In this document: one piece after another, positions 8,199 through 36,235 of the stretch
Position numbering within the stretch: position 1 is the stretch's first letter
Layout: the number at the start of each line of letters is the position of its first letter
Origin: a bacterium
GTDB lineage: Bacteria; Myxococcota_A; UBA9160; UBA6930
Assembly: GCA_024228115.1 (NCBI GenBank)
Contig: JAAETT010000424.1
Coordinates: forward strand, 1-36,367
Direction: 5' to 3'
Length of the DNA: 36,367 bases
Program-made: the position numbers and the translations under genes
Notes under the pieces: model-generated
The model's input: the letters and a program-made list of their open reading frames with translations, nothing else
Told to the model about the DNA's origin: nothing
Database searches by the model: none

Positions 8199-8852
8199 TC
8201 AAGGAACTTCCACGTTTCCGTTGCCTCGTCGCCAGAGGTATCCCAGGAGCAGGACCGCCGCGACCACGGCCGCCATTGCGCCAGCTCGCCAGTCGAACCC
8301 GTTCTCCCGCAGGTAGACGACCACCGCTTCCGTTCCGAAGACCAGCACCATCATGGGTGGCGCGAAGCCGATCGCGCTGCCCAGAACGAAGGGAACGAAG
8401 CGGATGTTCGAGATGCCGAGGGCCCAATGCGCGGGAGCCGCCAGGAAGAAGACGAGCCGCACGAGTACGACGGTCCGCAAGGGCCGCTCTTCCGCATGGC
8501 GCGTGAAGCGGCGCACGCGCGGCGGGAGGTGCTCCTGCACCCAATCACGCAGGAACCAACGCGCGGCGATGTAGGAAACGATGCCCGCGCCCACCGCCCC
8601 CGCCAGAGAGAGGCCCACCACCGTCCAGTAGGACCAGACGGTCGTCGCGGGGCCGATGAAGAGAATGCCTGGGACGCCCAGAGGCTCGATCAGCGAAAAG
8701 GCCGCTACGTAGAGGAGAGGGCCGAGTGCTCCCGAATCGGCCAACAATGCATGCATGCGTTCTGCATCGGCGAGGGCGCCGATCGCACCGCTCCACCAGA
8801 AGGCGAAGACGAACAATCCGAAGGCGGGAATGGCGAGCAGGCGGGGGTTCAT
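8199..8852 (-). CDS. TVP38/TMEM64 (VTT-domain) membrane protein
   Basis: This 217-residue integral membrane protein has a VTT/DedA-like core: a re-entrant LIEPLGVPGILFIGPATTVWS segment (residues about 54-74) and GIVSYIAARWFL, followed by a basic helix and the conserved VVLVRLVFF segment. DedA/VTT proteins are linked to lipid scrambling, membrane potential and undecaprenyl-phosphate recycling. It lies 27 nt after the zinc dehydrogenase and precedes the FIST gene. A direct functional link is not evident. Confidence 0.8.
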   Translation of the reverse strand: MNPRLLAIPAFGLFVFAFWWSGAIGALADAERMHALLADSGALGPLLYVAAFSLIEPLGVPGILFIGPATTVWSYWTVVGLSLAGAVGAGIVSYIAARWFLRDWVQEHLPPRVRRFTRHAEERPLRTVVLVRLVFFLAAPAHWALGISNIRFVPFVLGSAIGFAPPMMVLVFGTEAVVVYLRENGFDWRAGAMAAVVAAVLLLGYLWRRGNGNVEVP

Positions 8853-8879
8853 GACGCGAAAATCAGCGAGGTTCGGCGG

Positions 8880-9974
8880 CTAGGGCTGAGGGTGGAGAGA
8901 GCAGTGGATGGCATCCTCGCCGGGTATTTCCCGAGCCAGCGTACGAATCGCCAGCTCCGCATCTTCCAGCGAGAACTCGTGGGTGTGCATTCTCTCGAGC
9001 GAATGCTGCCCGCCCTCGATCATGCGGATGCCACTTCGATAGGCCGAAGACGTGACGCCGATCGCGCCGTGAACGCGGATCTCCTTGATCACGATCTTGT
9101 CCGAGATGAAATCGGGAATCGCCTTGAATCCCTTGACGCCGGCCAGCACGACGGTGCCACCCATGCGTACCAGGTCGAGAGCCTCGGTCACCGGCGTGGT
9201 GGCGTAGGAAGTCACTTCCACCACGACGTCGACCCCACGGCCGTCGGTCAGCTCCCGCACGCGCTCACGCACGTCTTCATGTTCCACGTCGATCGTCGCG
9301 TCCGCTCCGAACGCACGGGCAAGCTCGAGCTTCTTGGCGTCGGCACTCAGGCCTGTGACGATGATCTTGTTCGCACCCGCCTGGCGTGCCGCCAGCACGC
9401 TGGCCAGGCCTCTCTGCCCGGGCCCCATCACGAGCACGTCGTCGCCGGGCTTCGTCTGCGGAATCTCGACCGCCCAGCGGAAGCCGGCACCCAGCGGGTT
9501 GAAGAGCACCGCGAGTTCTGGGGGCAACGCGGCGTCGATCTTGTGCACCACCGAGCCCGGGGCCAGCACCATGTGATGGGCGTAGGCCCCCCATAGGCCG
9601 TGTTGTTCGGCCAGCGGAATGTAGGAGTAGATCTTCCGTCGCTCGCATAGATGGCGGAGGCCGGCCAGGCAGCGCGTGCAATGCCCGCATGAGATCATGT
9701 TCTCGACCGCAACCCGATCGCCGACATCGACGCGCCACTGCTCCGCAGCCCGATCACCGATTGCCTCGATCACGCCCAGGGGCTCGTGCCCGGGGATGAC
9801 CGGAGTGGGTGTCCGCAGTGCTCCCTCGAACTGCTCGTAGTCGCTGCCACAGATTCCACAGGCCTCGAGGCGTAGCAGCGCGGTGTCGTCCGTCAGGTCG
9901 GGGATCGGAAGGTCGCGCGCTTCGAGCTGACGGGGCGCGGTGAGGACCATTGCGAAGGTGGACGGAGGAGGCAT
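8880..9974 (-). CDS. Zinc-dependent alcohol dehydrogenase (MDR family)
   Basis: This 364-residue protein carries the zinc motifs of classical medium-chain dehydrogenases: ACGICGSD (residues 38-45, catalytic Cys) and GHE near 63-65. The structural-zinc cysteines are in SCGHCTRCLAGLRHLC. A Rossmann motif follows near residue 180 (VMGPGQRGLA). The glycine motif reads GPGQRG instead of GxGxxG, a Q replacing a usual hydrophobic residue. Similar enzymes include threonine or polyol dehydrogenases, and the substrate is unknown. The chosen ATG at 9972-9974 leaves a 97-nt divergent spacer to the PPIase gene. Confidence 0.85.
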   Translation of the reverse strand: MPPPSTFAMVLTAPRQLEARDLPIPDLTDDTALLRLEACGICGSDYEQFEGALRTPTPVIPGHEPLGVIEAIGDRAAEQWRVDVGDRVAVENMISCGHCTRCLAGLRHLCERRKIYSYIPLAEQHGLWGAYAHHMVLAPGSVVHKIDAALPPELAVLFNPLGAGFRWAVEIPQTKPGDDVLVMGPGQRGLASVLAARQAGANKIIVTGLSADAKKLELARAFGADATIDVEHEDVRERVRELTDGRGVDVVVEVTSYATTPVTEALDLVRMGGTVVLAGVKGFKAIPDFISDKIVIKEIRVHGAIGVTSSAYRSGIRMIEGGQHSLERMHTHEFSLEDAELAIRTLAREIPGEDAIHCSLHPQP

Positions 9975-10071: not shown

Positions 10072-10962
10072 ATGAGCACACAGCCCTTCTCGGAACGTCG
10101 GCCCGTCGTCCTGCTCGGCCTCGGGGCCGTTCTCGGTGTCGCCGTGGCTGCCTGGGGTTTGCTGTCGACGGATCCGACGGTTGGCGCCCTCCCGGGGGCC
10201 GCGATCGCTCGCGTGAACGGGACGCTCATTTCGAGCGAGGACTTCCAGAGCCTCGTTTCGGGCCTCGAGAGCGATACGCGTCAGGCCGTCTCGGACGAGA
10301 TGCGCAAGCGCGTTCTGGATCGGATGATCGACGAAGAGCTTCTGGTTCAGCGCGGTATGGAACTCGGCCTGGTGGAGAGTGATCGGCGTGTACGAGCCAA
10401 CATCACATCGGCCATGGTTCGAATGGTCGTCGTCGATGCGGAGGATCAACCGACCGAAGAGGATGAGCTGAGGGCATTCTATGCCGAGGAAGCGGGGTTC
10501 TTCACCCAACCGGGCCGCTTGCGGGTTCGTCAGGTCTTCATCCGCGTACGGCGGGGTGAGGACGATCAGGCAGGTCAGGCGCGGGCGGAGGCGGCACGCG
10601 CCGCCTGGGTCGGTGGCGAATCGCTCACCGAGGTTCGCAAGACACATGGGGATGTGGAGGTCTCACCGGTTCCTGATGCCCTTCTTCCGCCGGCGAAGCT
10701 TCGCGAGTACGTAGGGCCTACGGCACTGCGCACGGTCATGGACATGTCGAAGGGCGAGATCAGTCAACCGGTTCGGTCCGGCACTGGCTACCACGTCTTC
10801 CTGCTGTTGGATCGTGAAGAGGAACGCGTCCCGAGCTACGAAGAGATCTCCGAGTTGGTGCGCAAGGAGTGGGTGCGCCGCTCCGGGGATCGTGCCCTGC
10901 GCACCTACCTCGACGATCTCCGAGCGCGGGCCGATGTCGTACTGGGGGAAACGGCGCCTTGA
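10072..10962 (+). CDS. PpiC/SurA-type peptidyl-prolyl isomerase, membrane-anchored
   Basis: This 296-residue protein has an N-terminal hydrophobic anchor (residues 12-31) and a SurA_N-like helical region (ARVNGTLISSEDFQSL, then RKRVLDRMIDEELLVQRG). A parvulin domain follows from about residue 157 (LRVRQVFIRVRR ... GTGYHVFLLLDR). Such proteins fold secreted or outer-membrane proteins in the periplasm. The start at 10072 is chosen because it gives a normal anchor sequence. The stop overlaps the likely TTG start of the HupE-like gene (TTGA), so the two are coupled. Confidence 0.85.
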   Translation: MSTQPFSERRPVVLLGLGAVLGVAVAAWGLLSTDPTVGALPGAAIARVNGTLISSEDFQSLVSGLESDTRQAVSDEMRKRVLDRMIDEELLVQRGMELGLVESDRRVRANITSAMVRMVVVDAEDQPTEEDELRAFYAEEAGFFTQPGRLRVRQVFIRVRRGEDDQAGQARAEAARAAWVGGESLTEVRKTHGDVEVSPVPDALLPPAKLREYVGPTALRTVMDMSKGEISQPVRSGTGYHVFLLLDREEERVPSYEEISELVRKEWVRRSGDRALRTYLDDLRARADVVLGETAP

Positions 10963-12179
10963 GACCCGCGTTGATGCTCGCGATCTGGGCCGCGCTCATC
11001 GCGGCTGCCGCAGGCCCGGCCGGCGCTCATACCCGCAGCACGTCCTACTCCACCTGGGAGATTGACGGCGATGATGTCCGGGTGCGTTTCCGAATCCCCC
11101 AACTCGAACTCACGCGCCTGCCATGGGGCATCGTTTCTCCTCCCCATATCCCGGGCCCGCTCGCCCGCTACCTGCCCGATGCGCTTCACGTGGAGGTGGA
11201 AGGCGAAGCATGCACGTTGGCCGCGGGGCCTCGGGCCCTGGCTTCACCGCCGGAGAGGGCTCTGCTCGAATGGGAGTTGCTGTGTCCGGGGCCGGGTGCG
11301 CCGACCCTGACCACCAATCTGCTGCGCGAGGTGGCGCCCAATCATCTGCACTTCGCCCGTTTCAAGAGATCCGACGGGTCTGTCGTCGAGAGGGTTCTGA
11401 CGAAGGCCCAGCGCAGCTGGCTCCTCCCCGTCGGGGATCCAGAGGATGTGACCGAGTCCACCGGAAGCGGAATTCTCGAATACGTGCGCGTTGGTGTGGA
11501 ACACATCATCAGCGGCTACGACCACCTGGTTTTCCTGCTGGGGCTGCTGCTTCTCGCCAGGCGGGCCAGGGAAGTCATCACGATCGTGACCGGCTTCACG
11601 ATCGCCCACAGTATCACCCTGGCCCTGGCGGCCCTTGGTCGGGTGCAGCCGGAAGTGGGCGCCGTGGAAGCGCTGATCGGATTGTCGATCGCCTTGATCG
11701 CGGCCGAGAACGGATGGCTTCTCTCCGGCAGGGGCAGGGCGCTTCCTACTGCAGTGGTGGGCGTGTTGCTCGCGATGGCCGCGGCTGCGGCCTTCGGCGT
11801 AGGCGCCATTCCGCTCCAGACCCTTCTTGGCCTGGCCTTGTTCAGTGCCTGTTACTTCGCCCTGCTCGAGCGGCTCGATGCGCCCATGGGCCTTCGAGCC
11901 GCCATCGCCTTCTGTTTCGGCCTGGTCCACGGATTCGGCTTCGCCGGCGTGCTGATGGACATCTCTCTCCCCCAGGGTCGACTGCTTCCGGCGCTGCTGG
12001 GCTTCAACCTGGGGGTGGAACTCGGCCAGCTGGCCATCATTGCCGCGATCTGGCCCATCCTTCGGGCCGTCACCCACATTCGCGAGGGACACTTCCACCG
12101 TGTCGTGGTCGAGGTCGGCACAGCGGCCGTCTGTGGCTTGGGGATCTTCTGGATGGTGGAACGCGCGTACGGGGCGTAG
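10959..12179 (+). CDS. HupE/UreJ-like membrane protein with secreted N-terminal domain
   Basis: A signal peptide (WAALIAAAAGPAGA) opens the protein. An exported beta-rich domain of about 150 residues follows, and then a seven-helix HupE/UreJ_2 region with the family histidines (VGVEHIISGYDHLVFLLG, GFTIAHSITLALAALG, FGLVHGFGFAGVL). HupE/UreJ proteins are associated with nickel or other metal uptake, but this subgroup often sits next to periplasmic isomerases and its substrate is unproven. I prefer the TTG at 10959, which has GGGGGAA upstream and a 4-bp overlap with the PPIase stop. An ATG at 10974 is the alternative and would lose the arginine of the signal n-region. Confidence 0.8.
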   Translation: MRPALMLAIWAALIAAAAGPAGAHTRSTSYSTWEIDGDDVRVRFRIPQLELTRLPWGIVSPPHIPGPLARYLPDALHVEVEGEACTLAAGPRALASPPERALLEWELLCPGPGAPTLTTNLLREVAPNHLHFARFKRSDGSVVERVLTKAQRSWLLPVGDPEDVTESTGSGILEYVRVGVEHIISGYDHLVFLLGLLLLARRAREVITIVTGFTIAHSITLALAALGRVQPEVGAVEALIGLSIALIAAENGWLLSGRGRALPTAVVGVLLAMAAAAAFGVGAIPLQTLLGLALFSACYFALLERLDAPMGLRAAIAFCFGLVHGFGFAGVLMDISLPQGRLLPALLGFNLGVELGQLAIIAAIWPILRAVTHIREGHFHRVVVEVGTAAVCGLGIFWMVERAYGA

Positions 12180-32143: not shown

Positions 32144-32737
32144 CTAGGCCGGGCCCGGCGTCAGGACGCAGCCCTCCAACAACTTGGCGACAGCACGGCG
32201 GTGAACGCCTGAGGGAGCCGCGCCTTCCGTCGTCTGGAGATGGAGGACATCGTAGAGGCCCTCCGAGCCTGTTTCGATCACCATCTCCACCGGGGCGAGG
32301 CCGAGAAAGCCCAACCGCTGGAGCAGCCCACCCAAGAAGCCATGTTGATCGGGCCCGAACAGATCGACCCGCAGGGCGGCGCGCTCCGGATCGTCGGCCA
32401 GCGTGAAGCCCTCGATGCGCACAGGGATCCAGTCTGCCGGGGTCGGAGGGTGGAGGGCCAGCGACAAGAGATCGAGGGAGAGCGGATCTCGAATCGCCTG
32501 TTGAGAGGAGATCTCGAAACTGGCGGACCAGAGTTCCGGGTTTTCCCGGATCGCCACGCCGCTCTCGATCGTCATGCGTGCTCGCGCCAACCCGCTGCAA
32601 ACGCCCTCGGCCCAGCGACGAGGCATCGGGCCCCAAAGACGCAACACGTGGAGGTCTCGCCCCTTGGGATGGATCTCGAAGCCGCGTCCGCCGCCTTCGG
32701 GAGATTGTTCCGCATCGTCGAAGACCCGAACCCACAT
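32144..32737 (-). CDS. Probable tandem ACT-like regulatory protein
   Basis: This 197-residue protein seems to hold two ACT-like segments. The second (VDLFGPDQHGFLGGLLQRLG, then a beta strand and TTEGAAPSGVHRR) follows the ACT pattern seen in GlnD-type proteins (DRPGLL... with a later GxP). The first half (residues about 25-75) is more divergent. ACT domains bind amino acids or other small ligands. The start ATG at 32737 (third Met) has GGAGG eight bases upstream; an ATG at 32743 is too close to it. The call is tentative. Confidence 0.5.
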   Translation of the reverse strand: MWVRVFDDAEQSPEGGGRGFEIHPKGRDLHVLRLWGPMPRRWAEGVCSGLARARMTIESGVAIRENPELWSASFEISSQQAIRDPLSLDLLSLALHPPTPADWIPVRIEGFTLADDPERAALRVDLFGPDQHGFLGGLLQRLGFLGLAPVEMVIETGSEGLYDVLHLQTTEGAAPSGVHRRAVAKLLEGCVLTPGPA

Positions 32738-32862
32738 GATCATGTCCTCCGGTGTTCCGGAGGTGCAAGGGGTATACCGCGCAGGGAGCCGTCTGCGGCT
32801 CCCGGGCCCTCTTCCCTGCTTCCTCCGCAGGCATGTGTGCCCAACTGGTAGGCTGCGCGCAG

Positions 32863-33714
32863 ATGGAGACGACAGAAAAGGAAGAAGTGGCGAAATTGGA
32901 AGCTCAGCAACCGGGTGTGCGTGAGGCGTGCCAGCACATCCTCACCCGCGGCGACCTGGCCTCCAAGCTAACACCTGTGGCCGCGGATGGGGCCACTCTT
33001 CTCGACTCTGACGTGACGAAGGACACGTTTCCCAGCCGTCCCGTGCGGGGCGCCGGGCTGGAAATGGCGAGCGGTGCCGCAACGCTGCCCCGGCCGGGTG
33101 CACTGCGCTCGCCCCATGCCCGCGCCGTATGTCTTGCCCGCTTCGCTCACCACGAGCTCCAAGCGGTGGAGCTCTTCGCCTGGGCGCTGCTTCGCTGGCC
33201 CGAACTTCCCCAGGAGATGGCGGCGGGGTGGCTACACATCCTGGGGGACGAACAGCGCCATGCCCGGGCGTATCTCGACCGGTTGGAGGCCCAGGGTTTC
33301 GCCTTCGCGTCGTTTGCCCCTCATTCGGACTACCTCTGGAAGAACGTCGACGTCATGGAGACCCCGGCGGCCTTTCTTGCCGCGGTGGGCCTCACCTTCG
33401 AGCAGGCCAATCTCGATTTCAGCCTGCTCTACCGGGACGCGTTCCGGGAGGCGGGAGACGAAGAGAGCGCGAGGGTGTGCCAGGAAATCCATGACGACGA
33501 AGTCGGCCACGTGGCGTTTGCGGCGAGCTGGCTCGAAGTGCTGCAGCCGGGGGGCGATGCCATCGCCCGCTACGAGGCGAGCGTGCCGTTCCCGTTCTCC
33601 GCGGCTCGAGCGAAAGGCAGGCGCTTCGACGTGGCGGGGCGACGCAAGGCCGGCCTCAGCGATGCCTTCATCGAGCACGTGCGTACGGCCCGCTCGTCCC
33701 AGGAACGAGGGTGA
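32863..33714 (+). CDS. DUF455-family ferritin-like di-iron protein
   Basis: This 283-residue protein has a ferritin-like four-helix bundle with metal ligands visible as HHELQAVELFAW (residues about 95-106), GDEQRHARAY (about 127-136), LTFEQANLDFS and DDEVGHVAF (about 208-216). DUF455 proteins belong to the ferritin/MiaE-like superfamily and their reaction is undefined. Of possible starts the ATG at 32863 fits the family length; an earlier ATG at 32833 adds ten residues. Its stop overlaps the next gene's GTG as GTGA, so the two products are coupled. Confidence 0.8.
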   Translation: METTEKEEVAKLEAQQPGVREACQHILTRGDLASKLTPVAADGATLLDSDVTKDTFPSRPVRGAGLEMASGAATLPRPGALRSPHARAVCLARFAHHELQAVELFAWALLRWPELPQEMAAGWLHILGDEQRHARAYLDRLEAQGFAFASFAPHSDYLWKNVDVMETPAAFLAAVGLTFEQANLDFSLLYRDAFREAGDEESARVCQEIHDDEVGHVAFAASWLEVLQPGGDAIARYEASVPFPFSAARAKGRRFDVAGRRKAGLSDAFIEHVRTARSSQERG

Positions 33715-34793
33715 GTCACCTGCCTCGCCTGCTTCCGAATGTTTCGGCCGAGGAAGGCCCGGGCTGGCGCGAGCGCATTCGCGAGCCGGCGGCGGCTGCG
33801 GTGGTGTCGCTCTGGCGCGGCCTCTTCGAACCTCCGGTGCCACTCGCGTGGCTGGAAGGGGTATCTGCCGCTGCCTGGTTGAACACCGAGGAAGCTGCCG
33901 CGTGGGCGGCCGAACAAGGCCGGACGCTTTTCGGTGCCGCGCCCGGGATCGTGGCCCGTGTCCACGACAAGGCCTTCGCATTGAGCGCCGCCCGCGAAGC
34001 CCGGCTCTTGCCTCCGCCCTGGGACCAGATCGGCGTCCTCGAGCCCGCCGAGTTGCGCGATCCATCCAGCGCCTGGGCCATTCTCGATGCCCGGTTCGCC
34101 TCCTCGCCCGATGCGTTTCGTGCCTTCACCTTGAAGCCGCGCTTCGGAAGCAGCGGCAGGGGGCGGGCGGCCGGGCGTAACAACGGCGGCGACCGTGCGG
34201 CGCTCGAAGGCGCGTTCTCACGCCTGGCCAAGCGCGGCGGCGCGCTCATCGAACCCTGGGTCGAACGCATCGAGGATCTCTCGGCGCAGCTCTTGATCGA
34301 GGAAGGCGGCAGCGTTCTGTTGCTCGGCACTTTCGAGCAGTGCACCAGCCCAGCGGGAATCGTTCGAGGGCACCGGGGCCGGGTCGATTCCCGGGGCCGA
34401 GTGACCTCGGGCTCTCGCCACGATGAAGCTCTGCGTGAGGCTGCCGTGGCGATGGGGCTGGCGGCCTCGGAGGCTGGCTACCGCGGCCCGTGCGGCGTGG
34501 ATGCCTTCGTCTACCGGGATGCGGCCGGCCAGGAAGCCTTCAGGCCGGTGGTCGAGCTGAATGCCCGCTTCACGCTGGGCCAGATCGCTCTCGCAGAAAT
34601 GCGCCGGAAGGTGCCCATCCTCCGCGAACGCCTGGGCCTGGCCCCTGGTGTGTTGTGCGCGTTTCACTTCGGGCTGGCCCCGCCTGCAGCGGGCTGGCCG
34701 GCTGAGCGGGAAGAGCTGGTGTGCGGGGCAAGCGGCGATGGACCCGGTTTGATCGCAGCACGCGAGGCGGAGGGTCTGCCGCCGGCCTTCTGA
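33711..34793 (+). CDS. ATP-grasp-like ligase coupled to DUF455
   Basis: This 360-residue protein starts at a GTG overlapping the DUF455 stop. It shows ATP-grasp features in the expected order: TLKPRFGSSGRG (conserved Lys of the lid, residues about 141-152), ALIEPWVERIEDL (adenine-contact Glu and hinge, about 179-191), GPCGVDAFVYRD and VVELNARFTLGQIAL (Mg-binding E-x-N-x-R motif, about 281-295). ATP-grasp enzymes form amide or ester bonds. The N-terminal 100 residues are not recognisable. Its partner suggests synthesis or modification of a metabolite later oxidised by a di-iron centre; this is inference. Confidence 0.7.
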   Translation: MSHLPRLLPNVSAEEGPGWRERIREPAAAAVVSLWRGLFEPPVPLAWLEGVSAAAWLNTEEAAAWAAEQGRTLFGAAPGIVARVHDKAFALSAAREARLLPPPWDQIGVLEPAELRDPSSAWAILDARFASSPDAFRAFTLKPRFGSSGRGRAAGRNNGGDRAALEGAFSRLAKRGGALIEPWVERIEDLSAQLLIEEGGSVLLLGTFEQCTSPAGIVRGHRGRVDSRGRVTSGSRHDEALREAAVAMGLAASEAGYRGPCGVDAFVYRDAAGQEAFRPVVELNARFTLGQIALAEMRRKVPILRERLGLAPGVLCAFHFGLAPPAAGWPAEREELVCGASGDGPGLIAAREAEGLPPAF

Positions 34794-34893: not shown

Positions 34894-35412
34894 ATGTCGA
34901 ATTTGCAGGAGTGGTTGGCGGTGGCCTTGCAGCCCGAGGTGGCGCTACCGGTTTTTCTCGGTGGTCTGCTGCTTGCCTTCTGGCTCGGCCGCCGTACCGG
35001 CGACAATGTGAGCCAGGTCAAGGAGCTCGAGGGCGCTCTGGATGATGCCCGCGGGGAGCGACGGATCGTCGAGCAGGAACTCGGCGAATACCGAGGCCAG
35101 GTAGGCGACCATTTCGCGGAGACGTCACGCAAGCTTCACGATCTCACCCTCCAGTACCGATCGGTCTACGACCATCTGGCCGCAGGTGCCGGGCAGCTAT
35201 GCCCCGATCGCCTCGAGAAGCTCGAGGGCGGGCTCGGGCTGGACGCCCTGCCCGAGGAGCTGGCCGCTCCGCCGGTCACCGACGAATCCTTGGCGAGTGC
35301 ACCGGAAGGCGAGCCCCTCGAGACCGATGAGGATCTGCTGGCGGCTCCGCCGGTAGAGGAGACTCCGGCCGAGACTGCGCAAGACGAAAGTGCGGAGGCC
35401 CGATCCCTCTGA
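34894..35412 (+). CDS. YhcB/ZapG-like membrane protein
   Basis: This 172-residue protein has one N-terminal TM (residues about 15-33, VALPVFLGGLLLAFWLGRR). A coiled-coil region follows to about 100 with the DUF1043 pattern ELGEYRGQVGDHFAETSRKL and LTLQYRSVYDHLA. It ends in an acidic, proline-rich tail. YhcB (ZapG) in Gammaproteobacteria links cell division and envelope growth. Its ribosome site (AGAGGGG) lies about 9 nt upstream. Confidence 0.82.
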   Translation: MSNLQEWLAVALQPEVALPVFLGGLLLAFWLGRRTGDNVSQVKELEGALDDARGERRIVEQELGEYRGQVGDHFAETSRKLHDLTLQYRSVYDHLAAGAGQLCPDRLEKLEGGLGLDALPEELAAPPVTDESLASAPEGEPLETDEDLLAAPPVEETPAETAQDESAEARSL

Positions 35413-35451: not shown

Positions 35452-35724
35452 TCAGCGCCGTCCGGGCATCTCCGGGCCCGGCACGATGTTGATCGTTTCG
35501 GTCTCCGGGTCGAACACGACGAAGGCCTCCTCTCGCCGCAGTTGGCGAAGGACGTCTTCGACCTTGTCCTTGAGGCTCCGTTCGACGGCGCCGTAGTCGG
35601 TGCCCTCGCGGTTGACGAAGGCCTCTACTAGCCCGGTGAGCGTTTCGGCTTCGAGTTCATCCGGGGGGATGACGACGGGGGAGGGGCGCTCTTCCACACC
35701 GGGATGCTCTACCCTTGGCGCCAT
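35452..35724 (-). CDS. yheU: YheU-family small protein
   Basis: This 90-residue protein matches the UPF0270/YheU pattern: VVIPPDELEAETLTGLVEAF, VNREGTDYGAVERSLKDKV and a terminal VFDPETETINIVPG. The function of the family is unknown. The start is uncertain: the ATG at 35722-35724 shares two bases with the divergent gene's ATG, while a GTG at 35697 fits the usual YheU N-terminus (VIPP near the beginning). Confidence 0.85.
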   Translation of the reverse strand: MAPRVEHPGVEERPSPVVIPPDELEAETLTGLVEAFVNREGTDYGAVERSLKDKVEDVLRQLRREEAFVVFDPETETINIVPGPEMPGRR

Positions 35725-36235
35725 GCGTGCAACACCTCTCGCGATCATCCTGATGTCTGGCGTTCTGTTCGGCGTTTCGTCGGCCACCGCCGAGGAGCCG
35801 TACGCCGTAGGCGAACAGCTGGCGTCGATCGAACTGGAGGACCAGCACGGAGAACTCCGGGCCCTCGACGAGAGCGTGAAGCTCATCCTGTTCAGCCGTG
35901 ACATGGATGGGGGAGACATCTTGCGGGAAGGGGTGGCACGGGTCGGGGGCGAACGGCTCGAGGGCCTCGGTGCCCTCTACCTCTCCGATATCCACCGCAT
36001 GCCGGGGCTGGTCGCGCGTTTCATTGCGATACCCCGCATGCGCGATCGCCCGTACCCCGTGCTCCTCGATCGCGACGGAAAGGCAACGGCCCGTCTGCCG
36101 GATGTCGAAGGCCAGGCCACGATCCTGGAGCTGGAAGGCCTGACCCTGCGAGCGGTTCATCACTTGGATTCGGTTGAGGCCGTGCAGGAGCGGCTCGGCG
36201 GGGTGGCCGAACCTGACGAGCGAGTCGACGACTAG
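35723..36235 (+). CDS. Secreted thioredoxin-like protein
   Basis: This 170-residue protein has a signal peptide (cleavage near ATA-E, residues 1-23). It then has a thioredoxin-like fold without a CxxC: LASIELEDQHGELRALDE, LILFSRDMDGGDILREGV (the position usually holding the redox motif), ARFIAIPRMRDRPYPVLLDRDGKATARLP and a final strand. Similar proteins are common in Gammaproteobacteria near the envelope, and the function is unknown. The stop TAG (36233-36235) is the CTAG at the IS630 junction, so its true 3' end may have been altered by the insertion. No clear Shine-Dalgarno lies upstream of the ATG. Confidence 0.75.
   Translation: MRATPLAIILMSGVLFGVSSATAEEPYAVGEQLASIELEDQHGELRALDESVKLILFSRDMDGGDILREGVARVGGERLEGLGALYLSDIHRMPGLVARFIAIPRMRDRPYPVLLDRDGKATARLPDVEGQATILELEGLTLRAVHHLDSVEAVQERLGGVAEPDERVDD

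Follow-up and report, generated by a model that had tools for sequence, protein, structure and literature searches.

Several ATP-grasp ligases that join amino acids provide the closest points of comparison for the gene pair described here. In the Bes pathway, BesA (an L-propargylglycine–L-glutamate ligase; structure 8yi6 and NCBIfam model NF042917) uses material that is made by BesC. Others are the peptide ligases 3wvq and 3wvr, which we take to be PGM1 of pheganomycin, the Streptomyces structures 8ynd and 8ynq, and the L-aspartate–L-methionine ligase LdmS (NF047900), which is presumably the protein of structures 7r8p and 7r8q (SAOUHSC_02373). Heme-oxygenase-like di-iron oxidases (HDOs) that are clustered with ATP-grasp amino-acid ligases represent an established logic, exemplified by the mangotoxin genes mboABCDEF (PMC13185094).

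DUF455, the family considered here as the possible oxidative partner, is a named family of unknown function. It appears in a coral domain table and in a homology study in which it is related solely via designed sequences; two further papers deal with DUF4559 and DUF4551 instead. Here we analyse a 36,367-nucleotide stretch of bacterial DNA (the window) in which a DUF455 gene overlaps the gene of a predicted ATP-grasp ligase. We found no published description of this pair in the literature that was searched, a search outside which most subscription papers fell.

The overlapping genes and their predicted products

The DUF455 gene lies on the forward strand at positions 32,863–33,714 (ATG at 32,863, TGA ending at 33,714) and encodes 283 amino acids; the program-made open reading frame (ORF) opens further upstream, at a GTG at 32,752. 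The ligase gene follows on the same strand at 33,711–34,793 (GTG at 33,711, TGA ending at 34,793; 360 amino acids), and its start overlaps the stop of the DUF455 gene in the sequence GTGA at 33,711–33,714 (forward strand). A reading of the window from sequence only had claimed this gene pair and its overlap, and we confirm both ORFs and the overlap at these positions. The same spacing of −4 was seen again in most unfused pairs at related loci. Measured against the related locus L034, dN/dS was 0.11 for the DUF455 gene and 0.13 for the ligase gene, which indicates purifying selection; this selection on both genes, together with the reappearance of the arrangement in relatives, shows that it is not due to chance. 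The surroundings of the pair comprise a divergent upstream gene (32,144–32,743, reverse strand) without a Pfam or NCBIfam match, a downstream ZapG-like gene (34,894–35,412) with a score barely above the cut-off and, further downstream on the opposite strand, a UPF0270 gene (35,452–35,919), the latter two being kept in the window's subgroup only.

The first protein is a member of PF04305, with a score of 147.8 bits in a Pfam scan (E = 5.4e-43; cut-off 34.3). Its AlphaFold2 model (pLDDT 93.0) contains four long helices, at residues 84–111, 117–143, 168–196 and 200–227, and all six standard ligands of ferritin-like di-iron proteins, in the pattern E, ExxH, E, ExxH, are present on this predicted bundle. 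The candidate iron ligands, all on the forward strand, are E98 and E103 of helix 1, which are alternatives (33,154–33,171), E130-x-x-H133 (33,250–33,261), E180 (33,400–33,402) and E213-x-x-H216 (33,499–33,510). Each is invariant in an alignment of 44 DUF455 sequences, which comprises the window and 43 of 46 loci (L060, L075 and L080 were left out). The PF04305 score, the ligand set and the modelled four helices together uphold the earlier assignment of the protein as ferritin-like, with a putative di-iron site. The best structural match of the model is an aldehyde-deformylating oxygenase (6jzu_B; Z = 14.1, rmsd 3.2, 185 residues aligned), and Dps-like proteins, bacterioferritin, rubrerythrin and other ferritin-like proteins come close behind; because these score near the top match, the predicted fold (a helical bundle matched at Z of about 14) cannot separate an oxygenase from an iron-storage protein or a peroxidase. 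The Pfam model Haem_oxygenas_2 reached 13.7 bits, under its cut-off of 28.9, so the protein is not an HDO by Pfam membership.

The second protein has no match to any Pfam or NCBIfam model, permissive thresholds included, and its identity as an ATP-grasp enzyme had been a guess without Pfam support. The guess is borne out by fold comparison of an AlphaFold2 model (51 sequences; mean pLDDT 95.0), which identifies the product as a predicted ATP-grasp enzyme. The top structural match is BesA (8yi6; Z = 25.3, rmsd 3.3, 316 residues aligned, 18% identity), with 3wvq and 3wvr (Z = 24.9 and 24.8) and 8ynd and 8ynq (Z = 22.8 and 21.6) completing a top five of BesA and ATP-grasp proteins or peptide ligases at Z = 21.6–25.3; 7r8q scored 19.4, and PurK and biotin carboxylase at most 19.5. 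Altogether, 772 of 1,000 chains scored a Z of at least 8, and the matches listed bear the names of ATP-grasp enzymes. A profile built from 44 chosen diverse relatives recovered 8ynd (E = 3.5e-9), BesA 8yi6 (E = 3.5e-8) and 7r8p (E = 0.0014) without recourse to structure. Of these 44 relatives, eight are recognised by the LdmS model (best E = 6.4e-11), four, weakly, by the BesA model (best E = 0.0013) and seven, weakly, by that of the Pfam ATP-grasp family PF02222; the window ligase itself matches neither NCBIfam model, nor PF02222 over the cut-off. What it fails is the ATP-grasp sequence model, not the ATP-grasp fold.

The predicted active site is similarly conserved. K142 in LKPRFGSSGRGR (34,134–34,136, forward strand) is the predicted ATP-binding lysine, and D264, E282, N284 and R286, in VD...VELNAR (34,500–34,568, forward strand), form a predicted Mg/ATP site; we take the ATP and Mg roles of these residues and of E181 from the general ATP-grasp pattern. 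All six are without variation in an alignment of 51 ligases, which comprises the window and 50 of the 56 loci found in a scan of species genomes (L060 was omitted as a duplicate; L055, L078, L082, L087 and L089 were short or poorly covered). Among 54 distant ligases, K142 is kept in 49, E181 in 45, D264 in 54, E282 in 51 (with Asp in 3 more), N284 in 53 and R286 in 54; 6 of these 54, which did not pass a check for a motif of three residues, were kept out of the later reference set. The lysine and Mg ligands on which the sequence-only reading had made the assignment depend (K142, E181, D264, E282 and N284) are kept. As BesA and other ligases are the nearest solved structures to the protein, it is probably an amide ligase, and because BesA, LdmS and the peptide ligases join amino acids, the formation of an amide bond on an amino acid is our best guess for its reaction.

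Distribution, fusion and loss of the pair

The ligase is present in 25 of 40 related genomes, and in 21 of these 25 loci the DUF455 gene lies directly upstream, 3 times as part of a single ORF; at one fused locus (L029) an extra stop falls upstream of DUF455, so the fusion holds. The scan of 84,980 species genomes returned 56 ligase loci (L050 and L060 share one assembly, as do L042 and L075), from genomes that are titled Deltaproteobacteria, Myxococcota or Myxococcales, with a few others, such as Acidobacteria bacterium Mor1. Three of the loci are cut by contig ends; at the other 53, DUF455 overlaps or adjoins the ligase gene in 38, is fused to it in 8 and is absent from the locus in 7.

We then drew 282 genomes from the window's phylum, which to judge by how related genomes are titled is probably Myxococcota; 223 of them lie outside the window's class. 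Both genes occur in 87 of the 223, the ligase alone in 4, DUF455 alone (over the cut-off) in 13 and neither in 119 (Fisher p = 4e-42, with kinship ignored). The ligase gene is on the same strand and downstream of DUF455 in 75 of the 87 two-gene genomes, mostly within 700 bases, and the pairing, which it had been allowed might be found in close relatives only, therefore extends well outside the class. The genes are unlinked in the remaining 12, 11 of which belong to one family (f18). At the level of families, 20 of the 23 that have either gene have both in one genome, 1 has the ligase alone and 2 have DUF455 alone. The ligase usually occurs once per genome. Distances are correlated among 43 pairs (r = 0.746; 0 of 2,000 permutations), a correlation that vertical inheritance alone would give equally.

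At 23 of 51 distant loci the two genes form one ORF, with DUF455 first; this is a biased rate of fusion, as the loci were drawn mostly from linked genomes. A distance filter gave no ligase at nine of the 51 (L111, L112, L113, L123, L140, L154, L157, L159 and L178). The genomes of eight of these nine have a ligase match downstream on the same strand (across a gap of 3,490 bases in G065, locus L140), and L113 comes from family f18, in which the genes are unlinked. At L113, an amidohydrolase frame (8,325–9,668, forward strand) stops just before DUF455. At L111, DUF455 and the ligase come immediately after a PLP-dependent decarboxylase (10,673–12,112, reverse strand), which was seen once and is a possible hint of an amino-acid substrate. 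Several genomes of one family have a second, more divergent DUF455 copy (G131:C35:3987-4562, G105:C75:947-1522 and G255:C147:70986-71570), with no ligase match listed alongside.

Beyond the window's phylum the link fades. In a draw of 149 genomes from the phylum to which Acidobacteria bacterium Mor1 belongs, a strong ligase match occurs in 8 and DUF455 over the cut-off in 5; Mor1 is the sole genome with both, which are side by side, and the other 7 strong ligase matches are without DUF455. The annotated neighbourhood of a distant Parabacteroides ligase homologue lacks DUF455, the annotated records of Alphaproteobacteria have DUF455 without the ligase nearby, and plasmid records have DUF455 in nine cases and the ligase, weakly, in one. 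The distant ligase relative is a hypothetical protein of Parabacteroides distasonis (L133, 3,395–4,603), in which an N-terminal NPGHE resembles the NxDxExEL of acidobacterial relatives. In two Alphaproteobacteria, DUF455 comes directly after a peroxiredoxin gene (L131, 4,360–5,672; L132, 4,435–5,711). One of the plasmid records with a DUF455 homologue (NZ_CP119142.1, L130) is a 2.17-Mb Neisseria gonorrhoeae 'plasmid' that is probably a chromosome; the stretch is without annotated features.

Loci at which DUF455 is missing bear on the order of the two reactions. Four loci (L044, L045, L047 and L062) come from genomes in which the ligase is present but no DUF455 passes the cut-off; three others (L073, L085 and L087) come from genomes that carry DUF455 at a different place. 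In the L045 stretch (L207, 5,260–5,430), a short N-terminal and a C-terminal piece of DUF455, in different frames, immediately precede an intact ligase gene, and the predicted di-iron core has evidently been lost by an internal deletion. The DUF455-less ligases of L044, L045 and L047 have dN/dS values of 0.14–0.21, close to those of DUF455-bearing lineages, and also have the invariant catalytic residues. Because the ligase is under selection where DUF455 was deleted, its reaction is worth keeping without DUF455, and this favours either ligation first and oxidation second, or an oxidation that is optional; for the same reason, the coupling of the two is not obligatory.

A possible two-step reaction and its alternatives

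All-against-all clustering of ORFs from the 56 loci and the window found no neighbour family, besides the pair, that is conserved beyond subgroups, and the same clustering of the 51 distant loci returned only subgroup neighbours or the ligase itself. The subgroup neighbours include enoyl-CoA hydratase, AMP-ligase, HAD hydrolase, sulfatase and similar genes. Similar small ORFs among the 786 that lie beside 43 pairs were found within locus subgroups only, which agrees with the earlier remark that no precursor gene is evident: none of at least 20 amino acids is conserved across the whole set. The most conserved set, upstream of the pair in one subgroup, was rejected as a precursor, as by eye it looks like the C terminus of a TetR-like regulator. 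Because neighbours and small ORFs are conserved in subgroups only, a precursor-peptide system and a secondary-metabolite cluster are both argued against, and the pair looks like a self-contained core module that acts on a common metabolite or macromolecule rather than a biosynthetic cluster. The suggestion that the genes are a biosynthetic pair thus stands in part: they are a real functional pair, widely kept and often fused, but the precursor-peptide route is unsupported and the coupling is not obligatory.

We propose that the ATP-grasp protein would use ATP to activate a carboxylate as an acyl phosphate and couple it to an amine group, supplied by an amino acid or an amino-acid-like acceptor, after which DUF455, at its putative E/ExxH/E/ExxH di-iron site, would use O2 to hydroxylate, desaturate or cleave the ligase product. 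The gene overlap or fusion would hold the two sites close together; DUF455 may otherwise be an optional partner of the ligase. We infer the O2 chemistry, the shared pathway and the ligase-first order, the last because L044, L045 and L047 keep the ligase without DUF455. The occurrence of the ligase family without DUF455, of DUF455 without the ligase, and of unlinked genes in the 11 genomes of family f18 counts against a module, as do the lack of conserved pathway genes and a fold match that does not single out an oxygenase, and we give the whole proposal, a self-contained two-step module in the window's phylum, roughly even chances. The fusion points to an uncharacterised two-step enzyme, and a module found across the phylum would reveal an overlooked conserved metabolite or modification. 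More tentatively, and at somewhat worse than even chances, the pair may constitute a bifunctional ligase–oxygenase throughout the phylum, often as one polypeptide, that makes a conserved modified peptide or amide of core physiology and not a secondary metabolite; if true, this would give DUF455 its first reaction.

Oxidation could instead come first: a free amino acid would be the substrate of DUF455, and the oxidised product that of the ATP-grasp ligase. This order is in keeping with BesA as the nearest solved relative of the ligase, and with the clusters of amino-acid-modifying HDOs and ATP-grasp enzymes that are on record (PMC13185094); we nevertheless consider it unlikely, as the selection on the ligase after the deletion of DUF455 is hard to reconcile with it unless the ligase switched substrate.

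It is rather improbable that the substrate is a macromolecule, namely a tRNA or protein residue that DUF455 would hydroxylate in the manner of MiaE and to which the ligase would attach an amino acid. Such a role would account for conservation as one copy in the absence of pathway genes, in line with a ligase that generally occurs once per genome and whose only conserved neighbour is DUF455. Moreover, at three of seven acidobacterial loci the ligase homologue directly adjoins miaA, which encodes tRNA dimethylallyltransferase (L203, 3,457–4,395; L204, 7,677–8,612; L205, 4,698–5,573). However, miaA is absent from all other loci examined, the genomes with miaA-linked ligases are without DUF455 over the cut-off, and the nearest solved ligases have small amino acids as substrates. 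Nor does the protein match MiaE in the Pfam scan, which returned only DUF455, Ferritin_2 and Haem_oxygenas_2 up to an E value of 1. MiaE is also missing from the structural matches listed for DUF455, but these came from the top chains of Foldseek and carry no weight on this point.

A role of DUF455 in handling iron or reducing peroxide, as a ferritin-like protein that is only co-transcribed with a ligase whose metabolite is unrelated or protective, we hold to be very improbable, since the two are repeatedly fused and DUF455 is linked to this one ligase throughout the phylum, although DUF455 adjoins peroxiredoxin in two of three annotated Alphaproteobacteria and bacterioferritin and rubrerythrin are among its fold matches.

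Comparison with known systems

Each of the described systems shares part of the pair. The DUF455 proteins of Alphaproteobacteria are of the same kind by tblastn and are annotated as ferritin-like, but they are only about 31–34% identical (tblastn) and no ligase lies in their annotated neighbourhood. LdmS is linked to the window ligase through the 8 of 44 relatives that match its model, whereas the window ligase itself does not. The ligases 8ynd, 8ynq, 3wvq and 3wvr share its fold at Z = 21.6–24.9; a difference is that no precursor peptide of at least 20 amino acids is conserved near the window pair, and its ligase has no match to the Pfam PreAtp-grasp family. BesA shares the ATP-grasp fold over the whole of the window ligase, but the two are 18% identical, the window ligase has no match to NF042917, and no other family is conserved beside the window pair.

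There is also a likeness in outline to the HDO clusters, which likewise combine a di-iron enzyme with an ATP-grasp amino-acid ligase (PMC13185094). Those clusters differ from the arrangement here, in which the partner is a ferritin-like DUF455 protein, often fused to the ligase, without a surrounding cluster and found across a phylum. Because its di-iron partner is ferritin-like and under the Haem_oxygenas_2 cut-off, and because the pair is often fused and stands without a cluster, it is not a member of the HDO clusters. The pair would instead carry the logic of joining a di-iron enzyme to an ATP-grasp ligase from heme-oxygenase-like to ferritin-like enzymes.
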